From NCBI GenBank assembly GCA_029936395.1, contig JAPYSW010000009.1, forward strand, positions 1 through 39,161: DNA of 39,161 nt, given 5' to 3'. A program made the position numbers and the translations under genes. A model generated the notes under the pieces. That model saw only the letters and a list, made by a program, of their open reading frames with translations, was not told the origin of the DNA and did not search any database. Positions 7,323-39,161 of this stretch are shown piece after piece. Positions within the stretch are counted from its first letter, which is position 1; each line of letters starts with the position of its first letter. The stretch is from Candidatus Poseidoniia archaeon. GTDB taxonomy: Archaea > Thermoplasmatota > Poseidoniia > MGIII > CG-Epi1.

Positions 7323-7514
7323 ATGGGAAAATACGTTTGTCATAATTGTGACATGTCTGTTGCAGCAATGAACTGTGGAGCATGTGGTAAAGAATTAGTT
7401 CACGACACCCTTACTAAGGATGATGGAACCACAGTAGATGTTTCGAAGTGTCCTGGTGGTTGTGGAAAGATTAAGTCTCCAATGTGCTGTGGTAATGATA
7501 TGCACGCTCATTAG
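7323..7514 (+). CDS. 63-aa Cys-rich (double zinc-finger-like) protein
   Basis: MGKYVCHNCDMSVAAMNCGACGKE...SKCPGGCGKIKSPMCCGNDMHAH; eight Cys in paired arrangement; own TATA box. Confidence 0.8.
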   Translation: MGKYVCHNCDMSVAAMNCGACGKELVHDTLTKDDGTTVDVSKCPGGCGKIKSPMCCGNDMHAH

Positions 7515-7741: not shown

Positions 7742-10700
7742 TTAGAATAAACTTAAGCTATCCGAATTTGCCATTCTATCAAAAGTTTCAGTAACTAATG
7801 AATCTGGGCCCAAAACTTCTTTCGCCTTTAAGAATAAACAACGTATTTCACTTCGCTCTAAACCTTCTAGTGAAGGCATGATACCTGCTTTAATAACCTT
7901 ATCAAGAGCCAAATCAGGACCATATTTCGAAATTGAATTGAAAATAGTTACCATTGCATCAATCAATAAAGCTGGACCTATCTTACGGAAAGTACGAACT
8001 CCGACTGCTACTTCATCACCACGCTTTGGTGTTTCATCAGGTGTCAAAAATTTAACTAATTTTTCGTGACATTTGTACATGTTATTGTCATCATCATAAA
8101 AATCAAATTTCCGACTAGCATAATGTTTGCATTTCTCTCCAAATTTCCAAAGATCGTCTCCTTCAGGCCTATCTGGAACTAAACCTAACTTTTTCAACTT
8201 AAAGTATACGAACACTGGCATTCTATTGTACTCATCACCTGGGTCAGGTAAACCAATCTCAACAAATGCAAAACGACGCATTAAAGCAAAACCTACATTG
8301 AAAAGTGTATTCTTATCCTGAGTATTCATAGTTCCTATTATTCTAAATTCAGGAGGCATCATGAATGGAGCTCCTTTAGTTTCTTTATGTGTCAACAATG
8401 GTTGCTTATCTCTATACTCAAAGACTGTGAAAAGTTTACCAAACGCTTCATCAATATTAGCCCTATTAAACTCATCAATTACAAGATAATGAGGCCTTCC
8501 TGTTTCAACTATAGATTGTTCACACAATTTAGCTGCTTCAGCTACGTAACCATCTTTGAAATAATAACCACCAGAATCATCAGGTGAAATACCTCCAATA
8601 ACATCAAAATTAGACCATTCTGCATTAGCTGTAACTATAGTATAATTAGGAGCCATAGTTCCGTTAGGCTGTTTAATTTCGCCACATAGTTTCGTTAATA
8701 ATATATTTGATAAGGCTGTTTTACCAGTTCCAGGCTCACCAAACAGCATAATATTCTTACCAGAGGTTAAATGTGTAATTACTTCATCAACTGTATCTCT
8801 CGTAGTTGAATAAGCTTCAGCTATTTCTTCAAACTTGACATTGTAATCTACCTCTATTCCCTGTCTAATCACGACAGATTGATCCACAGCATCCATCATT
8901 GTTTTTTCAACAAGAGCCATCTCTGGCGTATGTTCTGTCGTATGCTTCAATTCAATCTGGAACTCATCACCATATTCCTCCATTAAAAATTCCATGGCAG
9001 AATCTACAGTCCATTCAGGCATAGCCGATTGTTGTCCAGGTATCGTTGGTGCAAACGGATCTTCACGATTAGGCATCGCCATATCGCTTGCAATTGAAAA
9101 TTCTTGTAACTTACGTGAACCAAATTTATAACTTAACCAGAATCCTATAGCTGTAACCAAAGTAGTAAGTGAAAGATATAGACGTCCTTGACTGTCTTGT
9201 GGTATTTCAATATCATTTCCCCCTATTAGAATTGGTGATAAGAAAGTGCCAAATAACGCAAAAATTCCAGCTGCGAAAATTCCAAAGTATGCCATTCCCA
9301 TTGAACTAGCATCGCCACTACGTTTTCGATAAAAGGAAAAAAGACCTACTGAGGCAACGCCAATCGCCATCACAGTTAGCATGGTGTCATTAGTATCCAT
9401 AACAAGACCATCCTCCCCATTTGTGATCAAATTATAAGCTAAAATTAAGAATTGTAAAACAAGACCGGAAATTATCATTGAAAAATATTTTGCTTCATCA
9501 ATGTCTCTAATCTTAGTACTTGTTATTAACCAATTACCGGCACCTATGAAAATAAATGTTGAAGCCATAAGAAGAAGCATACTATCCGAACCCCCTCCCT
9601 CCAGATAGAATGGTTTCACCAGTAATGCCTTGTATCCTACCCTCTGACATACAGTTTGCTCCTCAAAATCTATATTAGCCCTCATTTCTTCTAACTCGGA
9701 ATCCTGAAAAACAACAGTCCCATTATCTATTGATGATGTCGGAACAGTTCCATACGCATCCGTACAAATTAAGTAAGGACCTTGAGCATAATTAAAAAAG
9801 ACTGATGAAATCAATATAGCAACAGCAATCATAAACAAGTAGAAAGTTAAACTAGGTGGATCATCTAATGTACGCTCTTGCAAAGCGCGCCCAAGCAATA
9901 TACCTACTGAAACTATTAAACAAATAGTACAAACTAAACCAATTGTCAGAATCAAAGGCTCAATCAAATTATTAAGAATGCCTCCATAGACAATAAATAA
10001 AATAACTTCAGCAAGACCAAAAGCGATTATTGGTTGTAGTATCGCCTTATTGGAAACTGAAGTGTATAAATACAACGCACAAATAAATAAGATTATATTA
10101 AATAATACAAAAGAAACACCGCTCATCCAACTCATATTTACAAAACAACCGTATCTCTCACTATTATCTACAGTACCACTTTGGTTCGTATCAGTAACTG
10201 CATAAGTAATCAGTGGATCTTCTGCATCTTCGACTCTAAAATCTTCATACACTAATGCATCCCATATTTCACAATTGAAAGGTTCTCCAGTAAAGGGATC
10301 TGAAACTCCTCTTCCAATATCTACTCCATTCTTACGATAAGGAGTTACTGGCAGCGCACCATCTGAAGACTCCTCATCAGGCAAAGGAACTGTCGTTACA
10401 GCCAAACCTATAACTGAGAAAAATAGAAGAATAGAAATGACAAAAGCAATCAAAGGTGCCTTATAATTTATTTTCGAATCGGTTTTAAAGAAACCATCCA
10501 ATTTTCCAAAAAAGTTCCCAAAAGAGCCTTTAACGGTCGACAAAATATCAGAAAAAGAATTTGAACTACCTGATTTATCAGAAGATGGAACTTCAGAAGC
10601 TGATAATGCCTCCTCTATAGTTTTTTCTTCTTCAGTAATCGAAGGTGTTTCTGTTAAACTTGACACTACCTCTGTACTTTCAGCATCTGCTTTTTCTTCA

Positions 10701-10831
10701 ACTATAGGAGATGCTTCAGAGCCAGTTTCTTCGATAATACCACCTTCAGCCTCAAGGTCTGAACCACAAATAGCGCAAGAGACTTCATCCTCTTGTTCCT
10801 CCTCATATTGACAGACTGGACAAACCTTCAT
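7742..10831 (-). CDS. Zinc ribbon + polytopic membrane + McrB/MoxR-like AAA+ (AAA_5) ATPase fusion
   Basis: N-terminal CPVCQYEEEQEDEVSCAIC ribbon; acidic linker; many TM segments (about residues 125-590); C-terminal GEPGTGKT Walker A, HYLVIDEFNRANIDEAFGKLFTVFEYRD, FRIIGTMNTQDKNTLFNVGFALMRRFAF. Confidence 0.9.
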   Translation of the reverse strand: MKVCPVCQYEEEQEDEVSCAICGSDLEAEGGIIEETGSEASPIVEEKADAESTEVVSSLTETPSITEEEKTIEEALSASEVPSSDKSGSSNSFSDILSTVKGSFGNFFGKLDGFFKTDSKINYKAPLIAFVISILLFFSVIGLAVTTVPLPDEESSDGALPVTPYRKNGVDIGRGVSDPFTGEPFNCEIWDALVYEDFRVEDAEDPLITYAVTDTNQSGTVDNSERYGCFVNMSWMSGVSFVLFNIILFICALYLYTSVSNKAILQPIIAFGLAEVILFIVYGGILNNLIEPLILTIGLVCTICLIVSVGILLGRALQERTLDDPPSLTFYLFMIAVAILISSVFFNYAQGPYLICTDAYGTVPTSSIDNGTVVFQDSELEEMRANIDFEEQTVCQRVGYKALLVKPFYLEGGGSDSMLLLMASTFIFIGAGNWLITSTKIRDIDEAKYFSMIISGLVLQFLILAYNLITNGEDGLVMDTNDTMLTVMAIGVASVGLFSFYRKRSGDASSMGMAYFGIFAAGIFALFGTFLSPILIGGNDIEIPQDSQGRLYLSLTTLVTAIGFWLSYKFGSRKLQEFSIASDMAMPNREDPFAPTIPGQQSAMPEWTVDSAMEFLMEEYGDEFQIELKHTTEHTPEMALVEKTMMDAVDQSVVIRQGIEVDYNVKFEEIAEAYSTTRDTVDEVITHLTSGKNIMLFGEPGTGKTALSNILLTKLCGEIKQPNGTMAPNYTIVTANAEWSNFDVIGGISPDDSGGYYFKDGYVAEAAKLCEQSIVETGRPHYLVIDEFNRANIDEAFGKLFTVFEYRDKQPLLTHKETKGAPFMMPPEFRIIGTMNTQDKNTLFNVGFALMRRFAFVEIGLPDPGDEYNRMPVFVYFKLKKLGLVPDRPEGDDLWKFGEKCKHYASRKFDFYDDDNNMYKCHEKLVKFLTPDETPKRGDEVAVGVRTFRKIGPALLIDAMVTIFNSISKYGPDLALDKVIKAGIMPSLEGLERSEIRCLFLKAKEVLGPDSLVTETFDRMANSDSLSLF

Positions 10832-10919
10832 TGATTGTTAACAGAATCATGGTGTTAAAATATTAACTGATGCCAAATTAGCACAAATACAAGAAAAACA
10901 ATATTGCTAAAGAGCAAAC

Positions 10920-10927
10920 TTTAAATA
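10920..10927 (+). promoter_or_regulatory. Putative TATA box (TTTAAATA) for 10953..13331
   Basis: Element about 26 nt upstream of the ATG at 10953; leaderless spacing. Confidence 0.55.
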
Positions 10928-10952
10928 GGAGTCGGACCAAAAAGTAGTCCAC

Positions 10953-13331
10953 ATGAAAGAACAATTACAACAGATACAAGCGGTCGCCATTGTCACTTTC
11001 TTGTGTGTATTGATTTCAATCCATAGTAGTGGTGAATATGCTGAATGGTTTGAAGTCAGTGGAACAAGACAAAATGTCGATCCTGTAAGTGGAAATAACT
11101 CAGGCGATAGTTTCCGTTTTGAATACAGCTACTATCTTTCTGAATATATTTATTTTGAACAGAATGGCGAACAAAGAACTGTCCAATATAATAATGCAAT
11201 CGATTGTGACTCTTGTTTAAGTCAGAATCAAGCTTCTAAAAATGTAGAACGTCTCGCATATGGTACTGCACTAATGGCTATTGCTGTTGCATATATGGCA
11301 AATGATTCTATCAAAAATTTACATAAAAAGAATCTAAGAAAAGCTCTTACTAACTTAAAATATTCCGCAATACTCGTATTAGTCTTGGGAGCCTTGACGG
11401 CTTCTTCATTTGCTATGTCATGGCCAACTGCATTAACAGAAGATGAAGCTGGAATAAGTACTGAAATGGAACAACAACCTGTTTTAGGATGTATAGTCAA
11501 TACATTAACTTTCTACGGCAGTGGCTCTTGTGAAACATATGTTGAAACTGAAAAGGGATCTGTCGATAAGATAACTGCTAGAATAAGCCCGATATCATGG
11601 AGTCCGGGAATTGGTTTCTTTGTCGTTCTGTTAGGAGGTATTCTAACCGGAGGTGGGACACTGTACATTCTTGGCAATATTGATGAAGAATGGCAGAATG
11701 TACTGAAAAAACAAGACCTTATAGAAAGACAACAAAAAATACAAAATGGTGAAATTGATAAGAATAAAGATCTTCTCCGAGAATTTGAAGATACTGAAGA
11801 AAAATTAAGAAATGCAGAAAGAAAAATACAAGAAGTAAAAACTGTTGCTGAAGGTATTGATTATGATGGAATTGATGATTTAAACGTTGAATTGGATAGA
11901 CTAACAGCACTCAATCAAAGTGTAGAAACATTAAATAATTCACTGGAAAACAAGTTAAAAAGTGCTAGAATAGCTACTTCTGAAGTTGAAAAAAGATCGC
12001 GAATGGCTGAAAAAGAATTGAATGACGATTTAGCTGCTAAGTCAAATCTTGAAACCGAAATCGATGATTTAAGAGGAAAACATGAAAATGATATGAGGTT
12101 AAGCGATAGAATGACTCGTGAAATTGGTTCTCTAAGAAAAATGAGTGAGGATGCTGAAGAAAAAGCACACGAAGCTGAAAAGAAATTAAAAATTGAAAAA
12201 CCTGAAACTATCAGTGCCCTAGAATCTTATGACTCCGTAAAAGCCGCATACGATAAGACTGTTGAAGAAAAGAACAATCTTGAAAAAGAAATAATGGATT
12301 ATGAACAGCATACCTTGGAATCTAATGAAAGAGAAAAAGCAGCAGAAACTGAACGAAAAGATGCCACACAGCGAAGAAAAGAACTAGACCGAGAAGTGAA
12401 ACTTATGGACAAAAATAAAAACCGTATAAATGACAAATTTACAACGCTTACAACTAGCATAGAAAAAGCAAAAAAAGATCTGGCTGCAGCGCGTGAAAAA
12501 GCAGCAGTCACATTAAGTGAATTGGATTTAGAAAGAGAAACAATAATTGAATTACAACAAGAAGCAGAAAAGCATAGGGCAAAAGAAGGTGAAATAATTG
12601 GCTTAACTGACTCATTAAAGGAACTACAAGAACAAGTTGCTGAACAAGGTACCTCAAATTCTGGAATTCAAAATGATTTAAAAGATGAAACTAATAGAAA
12701 AAGGAAAACTCAAACTGATCTCAGTACATTAGAAAGGGCTTCAAAACAAGTTAGTAAAGTAATGGAGAGTCTGAAAAAACAATTTGATGAAGCTAAAACT
12801 GAATTAAATATTTCTATGGATGATCGAAACCAAGCAGAACGACTACTCGAGGTCGAAAAAGCAGAACATGATAAATTGAAAGAAGATCTTGAATTTCTAC
12901 AAGGAACGACTATCGGAAATGAAGAAGATACTGAAAGAAAAATAAAAGCTATGGAAATAGAGACTCCAAAAAATCAAGAACAAGCTAGGGAAATGAAAGA
13001 AGAAATTGATGAACTGAATGCTCAAAATTTAGATTTATCTGACAAAATTAAAGAAGCTAGAATTGATAGCATTGACAAAGTGGCAGAACAACCTGTAACT
13101 GAAACTAATAATTCTGAAGCACCTGTCGCAACTATTGGTTCAAGTGTTATAGTTAAAAACTTGACAAAGGAAACTGAACATCATTTTGAACTTGTTAATC
13201 CCGACCAAGTGGATCCAAAGAACGGGAAAATACCATTGACTAATCCTATTGGAAAAGCTCTAGAAGGTGCTAAAGAAGGGGACGAAGTTAAAGTAGGACC
13301 AAATCTATTCAAAGTATTAAAATTGAATTAA
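10953..13331 (+). CDS. Membrane-anchored long coiled-coil protein with C-terminal GreA/GreB-like module
   Basis: TM segments near N-terminus (VAIVTFLCVLISIH, YSAILVLVLGALTASSFAM, GIGFFVVLLGGILTGGGTLYILG), ~400-aa charged coiled coil, C-terminus GSSVIVKNLTKETEHHFELVNPDQVDPKNGKIPLTNPIGKALEGAKEGDEVKVGPNLFKVLKLN matching the GreA C-terminal domain pattern. Confidence 0.88.
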   Translation: MKEQLQQIQAVAIVTFLCVLISIHSSGEYAEWFEVSGTRQNVDPVSGNNSGDSFRFEYSYYLSEYIYFEQNGEQRTVQYNNAIDCDSCLSQNQASKNVERLAYGTALMAIAVAYMANDSIKNLHKKNLRKALTNLKYSAILVLVLGALTASSFAMSWPTALTEDEAGISTEMEQQPVLGCIVNTLTFYGSGSCETYVETEKGSVDKITARISPISWSPGIGFFVVLLGGILTGGGTLYILGNIDEEWQNVLKKQDLIERQQKIQNGEIDKNKDLLREFEDTEEKLRNAERKIQEVKTVAEGIDYDGIDDLNVELDRLTALNQSVETLNNSLENKLKSARIATSEVEKRSRMAEKELNDDLAAKSNLETEIDDLRGKHENDMRLSDRMTREIGSLRKMSEDAEEKAHEAEKKLKIEKPETISALESYDSVKAAYDKTVEEKNNLEKEIMDYEQHTLESNEREKAAETERKDATQRRKELDREVKLMDKNKNRINDKFTTLTTSIEKAKKDLAAAREKAAVTLSELDLERETIIELQQEAEKHRAKEGEIIGLTDSLKELQEQVAEQGTSNSGIQNDLKDETNRKRKTQTDLSTLERASKQVSKVMESLKKQFDEAKTELNISMDDRNQAERLLEVEKAEHDKLKEDLEFLQGTTIGNEEDTERKIKAMEIETPKNQEQAREMKEEIDELNAQNLDLSDKIKEARIDSIDKVAEQPVTETNNSEAPVATIGSSVIVKNLTKETEHHFELVNPDQVDPKNGKIPLTNPIGKALEGAKEGDEVKVGPNLFKVLKLN

Positions 13332-19841: not shown

Positions 19842-19918
19842 TGGTGGTGAGGGAGAGATTCGAACTCCCGTGGTCGCGATCTGCAGTCGCGTGCATAGCC
19901 GGGCTCTGCCACCTCACC
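19842..19918 (-). tRNA. tRNA-Cys(GCA) with encoded CCA
   Basis: Reverse complement GGTGAGG-TG-GCAG...ATGC-A-CGCGA-CTGCAGA-TCGCG-ACCAC-GGGAG-TTCGAAT-CTCTC-CCTCACC-A-CCA folds as a cloverleaf; anticodon GCA. Confidence 0.93.
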
Positions 19919-25680: not shown

Positions 25681-29813
<4,133 letters not shown>

Positions 29814-29900: not shown

Positions 29901-32900
29901 ATGAGACATGAATTAGGAACAATTATTTTTCTGGCAATAGCTGCTAGTTCCTTAATATTTTTATCAATCGAAGCTGAAGGAGCTCCTGATTTATTTATAG
30001 ATAATGCCGAATATTCTAATGACCAATCTCAAGAAAGACTACTCGTCGCAAGCGGAAGAGATAATGCTACCGACTACAAGTATTTGATTATAGATGATAT
30101 TAATGATTCTCCTGAAAACTGGTCTCTACCAGAATTTAATGACTCTTCTTGGAGTTTCGGTGCTGCGCCTTTTGGTGATCGGTCATCTGGTGGTGTTGAA
30201 CCGAATATAATATGGGATACTTCTGGAAGTTCTCCCTATAATGATGATGTTATACTCATAAGACACAAATTCCAAGTTTCCGGAATCGTAACCTCTGCTG
30301 AACTTGATGTAGCAGTTGCAAATTTTTGCACACCTTACTTAAATGGAAATATGATTTATGATGATAGAGGTGGAGATAGTCGAGCACAGGAGTATTGGAA
30401 TGATGATGCTGCAGGAACAATAGCTCCTTCTTTATTCAATCAAGGCGAAAATGTACTTGCTGTATATGCTCGTGATTATGTTGGAGGATGGGGTAGTAGC
30501 AATAGACAATGGATTGATCTACAATTAACGGCTCAAATTTTTGAACCCACTAATGAGTCTATAATTCTTGGAGATACTGTTAATATAGTAATAAATGGAG
30601 GAAATCAAGGAAACCAAAGTGCTGAAACTGTATTTCTAAATAGTACTTCGGGAATTTCTAACAATAGTAGCCTCTTTTTCGCATCATTACCTGCCAATTA
30701 CAGTGGCCAAGTATTTATTAGTTGGATTCCTGAGAAAATAGGCCTTAATCAACTTAACATTTCATTTTCTTGTAATTGTAATGAAACTAATTTCACTAAT
30801 AATTATTTTATTTTAAATGTGACTGCGAATATTTACTCATTAAATACTTCATTTAATAATGAATTATTGTCTGTGAACCAAAGTAGAATTGTTACCACCA
30901 TAATTCAAGTTAGTAATGATGGGGATTTAACTGACAACATAACTCTAACATACGGAGATCCCATATTTAGTAACTGGAATATTATATTTACTCCCAATAA
31001 TTTCTTACTAGAACCGGGCCAAACACAAAATGTTTTGCTAACTGCCCTCATACCTGAATCATATGAAGATGGATTCTATAATCTCTCTTTCAAAGTAGAT
31101 AGTACTCATAATTACGTAATAACAAAAACCTTATTGAGCCGAGGTGCAAATAATGATGTGGATTGGAGATGGATAAATTCAACTGGTTCTGAAGAATTAT
31201 TTAATAATACAAACTGGACAAAATTAGGATTTAATGATTCTTTATGGAGTGATGGAAATACTCCTTTCGGTGATACTGATTTAGGTGGAATGGACTACCA
31301 AACTTTCTGGGATGGTGATAATTATGCCTACTTTAGACATATAGTTAATATTTCGGATATTAGCCTTTATGATGGAGGATTTATGAGCATCGGTGTTGCA
31401 ACAAATAATTATGGCGATCACTACATTAACGGAATTTATGTATTTGGTGATATAGATGGAGGTAGTGGACACGGAGCTGAATACTGGAATGAAGAAGTTC
31501 AAGTATACACAAACTATCTAAATCAAGGAGAAAATATAATTGCAAGTGTAGTTTATAACCCATCAAATACACAATGGTTTGACCAAGAAATTGAGATTAC
31601 ATTTCCTCAATCTAATTTATGGAATTACAAAACTGAAACGAATGAAATCCCTATTTATCTTGATTCAACACCTCCATCTTCAGGATTTATTAATGAAGGA
31701 TTTTATCGTAATAATTCTACTTTTGAAGCTAAATGGAGATGCATGTCTGATTGTGGTGATTTAGAAGGGTATTATATTTATTACTTAGAAAAAGATGGGG
31801 GAAATATAGGTGAATGGATTTCTCTAGGGTTTTACACAAATACTTCTATGAATTTCAGTGGCCAAAATGGAATAATCTATCGATTTAAATCAGTTGCCAT
31901 AGATACGCTCGGAAATATTGAATATAAAAACTCTTATGACACGGAAATGAATATTGATTTAGACTTACCTCAATCTAAACTTTGGATAGTTGAGGGAGAT
32001 TATGAATTTACTAATCGAGATGGGGTGACTGTACAATGGAAAGCAAATCTCACATATGATATTCAAGCTTATCTAATAGAATATAGAGAGAGTGGAAATA
32101 TAACGTGGAAAGATTTTGGATCATTCACTGGACCTGGTCAATATTGGTTTTCACCAACATATGATGCAACATTTGAACTTCGTTCACGAACAATTGATTA
32201 TGCTGGTAACATTGAAATTAAAGAAGTTAGTGACATTACAATAACTTTTGATAGAGTAAAACCTATTGTGAAATTAAATCCTATCAATACTCTTGTTGGT
32301 CCTGAGGATTTGATAATTAGCATACTATACTCTAGTGAAGATTTAACTAATATAACTTTAGAATATGCCCAAATAAATGAAAATAATGAAGAAGAACTAG
32401 ACTGGAAAATGTGGAGCAATGACTGGGAAAATAAATCGGCTATTACTAATTTATTAGATGCTAAAACCTATTATTTCCGAATTAACCCCTTGGATTTAGC
32501 AGGAAACGATTATACTAGAGAAACATATCAATTTACACTTCAAATCATTTCTGAAGAGGATCTTAATATCCAATTACCCGTTCATCCTCTAAAACCAGTT
32601 ATGATTGGGAAAATTAGGAACATGGCTATTAGTGTCGATGAAGATGGTGATGGAATCTTTGAAACTAGTTTGGAAGAATATACTGGTACCGATTTGACTG
32701 GAATGACTGCAAACCAATATTGGATTGATTACGCTAACTCTAAAGTTGTATTTGGCAATGGAAATGATGGATATATGCCTCCCATTAATTCTTCAGTATC
32801 ATTTGTTTATCATGGTTTTGACTTAAAAACTACAATAGATGCAACTCCTCCTGAACCAGTTACTATTGCTAGCTTCATTATTGAAGAAAGAAATAATGCT

Positions 32901-33521
32901 ACTCTAGAATGGGAACGGCCTGTAGGTGCAGTAAGCTTCTTCATTGAAAGTAAAAGGAATTTCACTACGGACTGGATTTCAGTAATTATTATAGAGGCAA
33001 ATAACACAGATGAACTGAAATATAAATTAGTAAATTTGAGTAATGGATTTCATTATTATCGAATTAGTTCTATTGACAGAATGGGATATACTAACTCAGA
33101 TATGGAACCTAAATTCTTAGAGATAATTATCAAAGCTGAAATTATCAATGAAGTTATAAGAGAGGAGAAACCTGAGAATGATATTTATATTTATGTAGGT
33201 GCTGCAGTTTTATTAATCTCAATAGCACTATTCTCTGCAAGTTATATATTTAAAAGAAATGAAACGGATGAATTAATTAGTGATGGACCTGTATTGATAC
33301 CTTTAGAAAGTTTTACAGAAGAAGGATTTAATGAAAAAGTAAATCAAACTTTAGATGTGGAAGATGATAAGGCACCTTTTAGTGTGATCTCAGGAAGTGA
33401 ATTTTCTCGACAGGTTTCATTCATATGTGAGACTGGTTGTTCAAAAGAATTTAAAGGTAAAGGTGATGATGAAGAAATTATGTGCCCTTATTGTGGTACT
33501 ATTGGTGAATCACCACTATAA
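29901..33521 (+). CDS. Large secreted/membrane-anchored protein with duplicated extracellular beta-domain and C-terminal cytoplasmic zinc ribbon
   Basis: Signal peptide; two related blocks (NWSLPEFNDSSWSFGAAPFGD... and NWTKLGFNDSLWSDGNTPFGD...); one TM (IYIYVGAAVLLISIALFSASYIF); C-terminal C...C...CPYCGTIG. Confidence 0.85.
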   Translation: MRHELGTIIFLAIAASSLIFLSIEAEGAPDLFIDNAEYSNDQSQERLLVASGRDNATDYKYLIIDDINDSPENWSLPEFNDSSWSFGAAPFGDRSSGGVEPNIIWDTSGSSPYNDDVILIRHKFQVSGIVTSAELDVAVANFCTPYLNGNMIYDDRGGDSRAQEYWNDDAAGTIAPSLFNQGENVLAVYARDYVGGWGSSNRQWIDLQLTAQIFEPTNESIILGDTVNIVINGGNQGNQSAETVFLNSTSGISNNSSLFFASLPANYSGQVFISWIPEKIGLNQLNISFSCNCNETNFTNNYFILNVTANIYSLNTSFNNELLSVNQSRIVTTIIQVSNDGDLTDNITLTYGDPIFSNWNIIFTPNNFLLEPGQTQNVLLTALIPESYEDGFYNLSFKVDSTHNYVITKTLLSRGANNDVDWRWINSTGSEELFNNTNWTKLGFNDSLWSDGNTPFGDTDLGGMDYQTFWDGDNYAYFRHIVNISDISLYDGGFMSIGVATNNYGDHYINGIYVFGDIDGGSGHGAEYWNEEVQVYTNYLNQGENIIASVVYNPSNTQWFDQEIEITFPQSNLWNYKTETNEIPIYLDSTPPSSGFINEGFYRNNSTFEAKWRCMSDCGDLEGYYIYYLEKDGGNIGEWISLGFYTNTSMNFSGQNGIIYRFKSVAIDTLGNIEYKNSYDTEMNIDLDLPQSKLWIVEGDYEFTNRDGVTVQWKANLTYDIQAYLIEYRESGNITWKDFGSFTGPGQYWFSPTYDATFELRSRTIDYAGNIEIKEVSDITITFDRVKPIVKLNPINTLVGPEDLIISILYSSEDLTNITLEYAQINENNEEELDWKMWSNDWENKSAITNLLDAKTYYFRINPLDLAGNDYTRETYQFTLQIISEEDLNIQLPVHPLKPVMIGKIRNMAISVDEDGDGIFETSLEEYTGTDLTGMTANQYWIDYANSKVVFGNGNDGYMPPINSSVSFVYHGFDLKTTIDATPPEPVTIASFIIEERNNATLEWERPVGAVSFFIESKRNFTTDWISVIIIEANNTDELKYKLVNLSNGFHYYRISSIDRMGYTNSDMEPKFLEIIIKAEIINEVIREEKPENDIYIYVGAAVLLISIALFSASYIFKRNETDELISDGPVLIPLESFTEEGFNEKVNQTLDVEDDKAPFSVISGSEFSRQVSFICETGCSKEFKGKGDDEEIMCPYCGTIGESPL

Positions 33522-37150: not shown

Positions 37151-37183
37151 ACTTTAATATCTCCTCTTGAATATTCGATAATA

Positions 37184-39161
37184 ATGACCCGAAGATTACA
37201 ACTCTTAACTGGATTATTAATTTTATCGTTATTTTTTGTAATGGAAACTGAAGCAGCCCCTAGTACTGGTACTATTGAAGTCGCATTTATTTTATCTGAA
37301 TTTGAAGATCAAGAATACCAGAGCGTGCATGATCAGGACTATTTTGAAGAACTAGCATTTGGAAATGAAGATTCAATGTGGGCATATTATTATGAAGTCT
37401 CAAGAGGTGAATTAGATATTCAGGGAGATGTTTATGGACCTTATACCCTTGATGGTGATGCTGCTGATTATGGCACTGAAAATACAGAATTTGTCAGAGA
37501 TAGTGTAGAAATTGCTGATGATGATATTGACTATAGAGACTACGATGCTGTAATGGTAATCCATTCAGGAGCTGGGGAAGAATCAACTGGCAATGGCGAT
37601 GATGTATGGTCTATTCATTGGCCAAGTGTAAATATAGAAACTGATGATAATAACCACATAATAGAAGAAATTACACAGGCTCCAGAATACGAAAATTCAA
37701 ATGGCCAAAGGAGTCCTCTAGGTGTATGGTGTCATGAATTTGGACATGAATTGGGAATACCTGATTTGTATGATACAGATAGCTCTTCAGAAGGAATTGG
37801 AAATTGGGGATTAATGGCATCGGGTTCATGGGCTAATGATGGAGAAACTCCTGTTTACTTTAGTGCTTGGTCCAGATATTGGTTAGGGTGGATAGAACCA
37901 ACCGTAATCACTGAAGACATTAATAATCTTGAGTTGGAACCAATCGAAAATGGTGGAAATGTATACCTTTTACCAATTCCGGGGAATTGGTCAAGTTCAA
38001 ATGAATATTATTTATTAGAAAACAGACAGCAATTGAAATATGATAGCTATCTTCCTGGTGAAGGTCTGTTAATATGGCATATTGATGAAGAAATAATAGA
38101 CTCCAAATGGAACTCTAATGGAGTTAACTCAGATGAAGAACATAAGGGAGTTGATCTTGAAGAAGCTGATGGAAATGATGATTTAGACAGTTTAACTAAT
38201 CGAGGAGACGATGGAGACCCCTACAATTCAGGCTCATTTACAAAAGATAGTTATCCAAATTCATTAGCATACAATGGTACTGAATCGGGATGGAAAATAG
38301 AAAATATTGAAACCAGTGGAGATAATATTATCTTAGATATTAGCTTCTTATCTAAACCACATGCAGTAGCTGATGCCGATGAGGCTGTTATTACTGAAGG
38401 ATTAGAACTACAATTCTACGGCAATGAATCATGGGATGAAGATGGAAATATTGTCAGCTATACCTGGGACTTCGGAGATGGAGATTTTGCATACACTGAC
38501 AATCCTACACATATTTTTACACAAAATGGAACCTATGACGTTAAGCTCACTGTCTGTGATAATAATGACCTATGCGATTCTATGATTCTTAATATATTTG
38601 TAAACAAACCCCCGATTGCTGTTGTTGAAATTTCTAAGTTGACTATAATGTTAGGAGAAACTATCACATTTGATGCTTCAGGGTCATACGATATTGATGG
38701 TGATGTTGATTTTTATTATTGGAATTTTGATGATGGTTATACCTCAAGTCAGGCATCAGCAGATCATGAATACAAGAATTCGGGAACATACAATGTTTCT
38801 CTAAAAATAATAGATGATTTGAATGATATAACAACCGTTTATTACACTATAGAAGTCATAAACAGATTACCTATAGTAGATTTTTATTTCGAGGGAGGTA
38901 ATAGAACAACAACCGATATCTTCGAGTTTTATGATTCATCATACGACGAGGATGGAGAGATAATAGAATGGCTGTGGGATTTTGGTGAAGGAAATACATC
39001 TGATGATGTAGCATGTAATCAAAGCAAAAACTATTGCAATAAGGTATTCTGGTTTCCTGGGACTTACAACGTGACCCTATTCGTAACTGATGATCAATTG
39101 GGTACGAATTCAACAACCATCGAAATTACCGTAACTCCCACGCTTCCTCAACCCCAAATTA
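37184..39161 (+). CDS. Secreted M6-like zinc metalloprotease with C-terminal PKD domains (partial, runs off the window end)
   Basis: Open frame to window end, absent from ORF track; signal peptide MTRRLQLLTGLLILSLFFVMETEA; WCHEFGHELGIPDLYDTD; GLMASGSWA; three PKD-like repeats (YTWDFGDGDF, YYWNFDDGYT, WLWDFGEGNT). Confidence 0.9.
   Translation, partial: MTRRLQLLTGLLILSLFFVMETEAAPSTGTIEVAFILSEFEDQEYQSVHDQDYFEELAFGNEDSMWAYYYEVSRGELDIQGDVYGPYTLDGDAADYGTENTEFVRDSVEIADDDIDYRDYDAVMVIHSGAGEESTGNGDDVWSIHWPSVNIETDDNNHIIEEITQAPEYENSNGQRSPLGVWCHEFGHELGIPDLYDTDSSSEGIGNWGLMASGSWANDGETPVYFSAWSRYWLGWIEPTVITEDINNLELEPIENGGNVYLLPIPGNWSSSNEYYLLENRQQLKYDSYLPGEGLLIWHIDEEIIDSKWNSNGVNSDEEHKGVDLEEADGNDDLDSLTNRGDDGDPYNSGSFTKDSYPNSLAYNGTESGWKIENIETSGDNIILDISFLSKPHAVADADEAVITEGLELQFYGNESWDEDGNIVSYTWDFGDGDFAYTDNPTHIFTQNGTYDVKLTVCDNNDLCDSMILNIFVNKPPIAVVEISKLTIMLGETITFDASGSYDIDGDVDFYYWNFDDGYTSSQASADHEYKNSGTYNVSLKIIDDLNDITTVYYTIEVINRLPIVDFYFEGGNRTTTDIFEFYDSSYDEDGEIIEWLWDFGEGNTSDDVACNQSKNYCNKVFWFPGTYNVTLFVTDDQLGTNSTTIEITVTPTLPQPQI

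Follow-up and report, generated by a model that had tools for sequence, protein, structure and literature searches.

A predicted membrane-embedded McrB-family AAA+ motor of Marine Group III archaea, with a paralog followed by a McrC-like gene

Most of what is known of McrB-family motors concerns soluble subunits of restriction systems. The CoCoNuT and CoCoPALM systems are McrBC variants with coiled coils and an Ig-like domain in the McrC homologue; the CoCoPALM GTPase is fused to an FtsB-like transmembrane/coiled-coil segment, both groups have an NxD motif, and CoCoNuTs hardly occur in archaea (PMC11090510). PcdA of Staphylococcus aureus is a McrB-family division protein that has a cellular, membrane-associated role, no linked McrC, EVE domains and degenerate nucleotide-binding motifs (PMC10602043).

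The window, the whole stretch of 39,161 nucleotides analysed here, comes from a Marine Group III archaeon. Its minus strand carries at 7742–10831 an open reading frame of 1029 amino acids with an ATG start and, upon translation, no internal stops. Pfam, PDB sequence search, hydropathy and AlphaFold2 describe the product, termed type A, as a zinc ribbon, an acidic linker, a domain of about ten transmembrane (TM) helices and a McrB-family AAA+ domain. The first-pass annotation had given the same order (paired CxxC motifs, acidic linker, hydrophobic helices, C-terminal AAA_5), and it is borne out by sequence motifs, hydropathy, Pfam and AlphaFold2. The N-terminal zinc ribbon (residues 1–26; 10754–10831, minus strand) has the pattern C4-x2-C7..C19-x2-C22, its four cysteines are invariant in 18 N-terminal rows, and several members give weak Zn_ribbon_3/DZR matches; residues 27–126 form the acidic linker. 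Behind the membrane domain come the NTPase domain (residues ~660–872; 8216–8854, minus strand) and a C-terminal region, helical in AlphaFold2 secondary structure (residues 873–1029; 7745–8215, minus strand). That a membrane gene was joined to a McrB gene by an artefact of assembly or gene calling can practically be dismissed: many independent assemblies of Marine Group III archaea have the frame unbroken, on metagenome-assembled as well as single-cell contigs, among them AG-343-J07 and AG-343-N02, which we take from their record titles to be single-cell genomes. The fusion is also present in two paralogous families, whose alignment crosses the TM/AAA junction, and an assembly chimera was rejected.

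The membrane domain (residues ~125–584; 9080–10459, minus strand) has nine TM segments scoring at least 1.6 in hydropathy and a weaker tenth near 547–571. In the AlphaFold2 model, which is of moderate confidence (mean pLDDT 58.8), ten long helices lie within 124–584 with the AAA domain after them, and the loop charges are compatible with an N-in/C-in arrangement, so that the membrane embedding proposed at first pass is upheld by a predicted topology of about ten helices with both ends inside. Two outer loops hold two cysteines apiece (C187/C229 and C356/C395); C187 and C229 of the first loop, together with W190, are invariant across the type A and type B families (see below for type B). When residues 1–597 were used as a profile against 390 sampled genomes of the phylum, full-length matches were confined to the Marine Group III motor family, and matches outside it were almost all to the zinc ribbon alone or to short stretches. 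Searches of Pfam and PDB gave no convincing relative of the TM domain. Whether such a fusion is already a characterised family had been raised at the outset, and no description of a zinc ribbon/TM/McrB fusion turned up in the domain libraries and papers covered by a limited literature search; judged from sequence, a McrBC-family variant of this kind, integral to the membrane and part of the core genome, appears to be new.

Pfam places AAA_5 at residues 693–854 of type A (E 1.6e-19), with Walker A (GEPGTGKT) at 698, Walker B (VIDEF) at 784, the NxxD motif at 836–839 (NTQD, within MNTQD at 835) and RRF at 852. The best named family is McrB (PRK11331, E 3.5e-19, NCBIfam; GvpN reaches 1e-4), and sequence matches in PDB are McrB chains only (6hz4, 6ut6, 7vsr, 6ut3, 6ut5). 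Foldseek with the type A model put McrBC 6hz4 on top, with NorQ and dynein folds also resembled. In the tree a 100/100 branch splits the motor from the MoxR proteins of its own genome; the motor falls outside the canonical McrB clade (84/94) and groups weakly with Deinococcus McrB-family proteins (94/93), a placement to be read with a long-branch warning. By these sequence criteria type A is a McrB-clade AAA+ motor in which the Walker A, Walker B and NxxD motifs are all intact. It had been described as resembling McrB or MoxR; NCBIfam, PDB and the tree support the McrB half of that description, and the MoxR half falls away with the separate clade of the genome's own MoxR proteins. A Pfam scan of the neighbouring genes found no VWA gene adjoining the motor, and a search of the genome with the VWA_2 model found no such protein; with the tree, this led us to reject a MoxR/VWA system. 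DUF58-like genes presumably adjoin the true MoxR genes of the genome. No Pfam recognition domain for modified DNA was found at the N-terminus of type A, where the zinc ribbon and TM domain stand instead. Membership among the CoCoNuTs was rejected as well, the type A motif being NTQD (NxxD) and not NxD (motif classes of PMC11090510).

A second copy of the motor, type B, is present in the same genome (G000:C1); its identity with type A is 78% in the AAA region, 55% after it (from residue 871 on) and 26% in the TM domain. A gene for a McrC-like protein of 697 amino acids starts one base pair behind type B; it is single-copy in the genome and was found in 18 of 60 relatives; none was found outside the family in the sampled genomes of the phylum. 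No McrC-like gene stands beside the type A copy. The first-pass statement that no McrC or VWA gene is adjacent and that the client is unknown thus holds for the copy in the window and fails for the family, and its proposed search for partners elsewhere in the genome yields a candidate diverged McrC for type B, with VWA_2 lacking.

The McrC-like protein consists of an Ig-like domain, a helical middle and a PD-(D/E)XK-like motif (E-x12-E-x-K). We compared it by hhalign with an archaeal McrC profile whose members were retrieved with PF10117. Residues 423–479 reached 93.6% with a score of 54 and an E-value of 2.2e-07, E-values being indicative in such single pairwise profile comparisons; 40 column shuffles scored at most 21.1, the reversed segment 15.7, and a repeat with 20 shuffles per comparison no more than 20.4. 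With the protein taken whole, the values were 90.2% and a score of 57.6, residues 1–560 scored 55.8 (shuffles at most 24.4), and the middle region against the partners of haloarchaeal McrB-like proteins scored 50.2 (shuffles at most 18.0). Profile comparison gave no signal for the Ig-like domain, nor for the protein against the partner set of Deinococcus and Priestia (A7), and as a query in Pfam, PDB and tblastn searches the protein yielded nothing useful. Its motif, E426-x12-E439-x-K441, in its context P-E-x12-E-x-K-Y, is followed by VYKVLAYM (as DVYK..AYM) and then YP, copying the motif order of an archaeal McrC (L103: PD-x12-DxKY, as DTKY, then DVYQMLAYA, then YP) with the same spacing between the acids. 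AlphaFold2 was reasonably confident for parts of the protein, mainly the Ig-like N-terminus, and Foldseek with this model returned mainly beta-sandwich-type matches. Profile comparison and motif order together suggest that the gene behind type B is a diverged McrC homologue; they carry the assignment because the protein matches neither PF10117 nor DUF2357 in Pfam and its nuclease part has no confident fold. The PD-(D/E)XK-like motif is kept in 12 of 15 McrC-like partners. Nuclease activity is uncertain, since K441 is replaced by Q in three members of genus g2 (L061, L062 and L065) and Glu stands in place of Asp as the first acid.

The divergent neighbour of type A (10953–13331, plus strand) encodes 792 amino acids with about four TM segments, a long coiled coil and, at the very end, a GreA/GreB C-terminal domain (PF01272, E 9.5e-13; GreA 1grj in PDB, E 4.2e-4). 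A GreA N-terminal domain was not recognised in the product. The two genes have in common a 121-bp intergenic region (10832–10952) that reads as containing a TATA-like tttaaatag near 10919, and their spacing is similarly short in other genomes. Co-occurrence and adjacency make this protein a candidate partner of type A: both genes are found in the identical set of 12 genomes and adjoin on every contig carrying both. One contig (G019) runs from Elp3 to M3 peptidase with neither gene, a joint absence at the syntenic site; in G017 a gene resembling one from that G019 site adjoins the end of the coiled-coil gene. Linkage accounts for part of this co-occurrence, as linked genes are expected to vanish together. 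On the other side of the motor, a 63-aa cysteine-rich protein with no Pfam match (7323–7514, plus strand) is conserved beside type A, g2 included.

Among 60 relatives, 20 gave a match to the motor protein; 19 of these belong to one family, and the twentieth is a short AAA match in another. In genus g1 type A is flanked by the genes for Elp3 and the M3 peptidase, and in the g2 member G017 it lies near Elp3; the type B locus keeps the order GINS (upstream), type B, McrC-like gene and GAPDH in both genera. Conservation of the neighbourhood, which had been left to check, thus extends to both loci and to the divergent neighbour of type A. Against G008, dN/dS was 0.065 for type A, 0.045 for type B, 0.035 for the McrC-like gene and 0.077 for the coiled-coil gene, with 0.024–0.131 for five neighbours in the window, all rough values with dS near or above 1 for most. 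Both motor loci are syntenic core genes in two genera, under purifying selection like that on housekeeping genes. Typical restriction systems are mobile and exchangeable, and measured against these the motor loci look unlike an exchangeable defence island.

Elsewhere in the window, a 1206-aa protein (29901–33521, plus strand) has a weak fn3 match alone (E 0.0029), and a 957-aa membrane protein (26940–29813, minus strand) is MMPL/Patched-like. About 1.7 kb at 37151–38870 has no open reading frame of at least 80 aa and no Rfam match; the sole Rfam match in the window is a tRNA at 19845–19918.

We consider it fairly probable that these genes encode a membrane-relocated McrB-family AAA+ NTPase in a paralogous pair, type B having a McrC-like partner, with a co-opted cellular role rather than exchangeable restriction. 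Six copies of the motor would form a ring under the membrane, its zinc ribbons and AAA domains in the cytosol and its membrane domains as tethers. The McrC-like protein would dock on the ring and stimulate its NTP hydrolysis in the way that McrC stimulates McrB, and might act on nucleic acid handled at the membrane. Type A may join the same McrC-like protein in trans, in mixed or parallel rings, or it may have its adaptor or client in the divergent membrane/coiled-coil/GreA_C protein. The cellular role that we favour would be membrane-proximal DNA handling, division or surveillance; it is favoured by the fixed, core-gene status of the loci and by the change of the catalytic lysine to glutamine in three McrC-like proteins, and PcdA offers by analogy a precedent for co-option of a McrB-family protein (PMC10602043). 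The original proposal of a membrane-embedded remodelling motor with an unknown client survives as to a membrane-embedded McrB-clade motor; the motor family is no longer without partners, given the operon of type B with the McrC-like gene and the conserved divergent neighbour of type A.

We rank second a membrane-tethered, otherwise ordinary Type IV restriction system, in which the motor would scan DNA entering at the membrane by virus injection or uptake and the McrC-like nuclease would cut it. The operon at type B, the PD-(D/E)XK-like motif in most partners, and haloarchaeal relatives that adjoin DNA methyltransferases, helicases or a GIY-YIG nuclease on plasmids all point that way; yet both loci sit syntenically among housekeeping genes and evolve like them, no DNA-recognition domain (EVE, DUF3578) was identified in the motor, three McrC-like members have lost the catalytic lysine, and PADLOC yields weak AAA matches only, so that we regard this as unlikely. 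For type A by itself, a motor for membrane remodelling or protein handling without a nucleic-acid function, with the coiled-coil/GreA_C protein as client or adaptor in the manner of NorQ-NorD or PcdA, seems doubtful. It would fit the lack of an adjacent McrC, the shared presence and joint absence of the coiled-coil gene, the resemblance of the model to NorQ and dynein folds and the precedent of PcdA (PMC10602043), but linked genes on one contig are expected to go missing together, no VWA_2 protein was found in the genome, and the NxxD motif and AAA domain are nearly identical to those of type B, which has the McrC-like partner.

In a tentative and less likely history, an early Marine Group III archaeon would have acquired a restriction-type McrBC machine, which was then joined to a membrane domain, duplicated and made permanent at the membrane, one copy keeping the McrC-like partner and the other becoming coupled to the GreA-domain membrane coiled-coil protein, a coupling that might connect transcription or nucleic-acid events with the envelope. 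A ten-TM McrB fixed as a core gene in ocean archaea with small genomes would be evidence that motors of this class can become membrane-anchored and domesticated. We offer motor B with the McrC-like protein and motor A with the coiled-coil/GreA_C protein as candidate pairs.

Among known systems, PcdA differs in that the Marine Group III motor has a TM block and intact motifs. NorQ/MoxR-VWA systems have the broad AAA_5 fold in common with it, NorQ being among the structural matches of the type A model, whereas sequence and tree lead type A to McrB, VWA_2 is missing from the genome and the true MoxR genes lie elsewhere. Compared with CoCoNuT and CoCoPALM, the motor has NxxD, ten TM helices and the status of an archaeal core gene, and the coiled coil comes from a neighbouring gene of its own; in CoCoNuTs it is fused to McrB. 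Closest by AAA sequence are plasmid-borne McrB-like proteins of haloarchaea, Deinococcus, Priestia and others, at no more than 44% identity over the AAA core. The loci examined are two-gene units with a "hypothetical protein" (L102, L123-L133), represented in one D. radiodurans record by two short genes; in the haloarchaeal pairs this partner has a middle domain in common with the McrC-like protein of Marine Group III. These pairs differ in being mostly plasmid-borne, several near DNA methyltransferases or helicases, and hydropathy gives no TM block in the haloarchaeal, Deinococcus and Priestia motors. A more ordinary McrB and McrC pair occurs in another family of the same class (L033, G037:C4, 1019–5078; PF10117, E 6.5e-9). 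The E. coli McrBC Type IV system (6hz4, PRK11331) resembles the present one in its AAA+ domain with Walker A, Walker B and NxxD and in the operon of type B with a McrC-like protein; it differs in that the Marine Group III motor has a zinc ribbon and a multi-TM domain in place of the DNA-binding domain, stands outside the canonical McrB clade, and comes as two core paralogs with a very diverged McrC-like protein that begins with an Ig-like domain.
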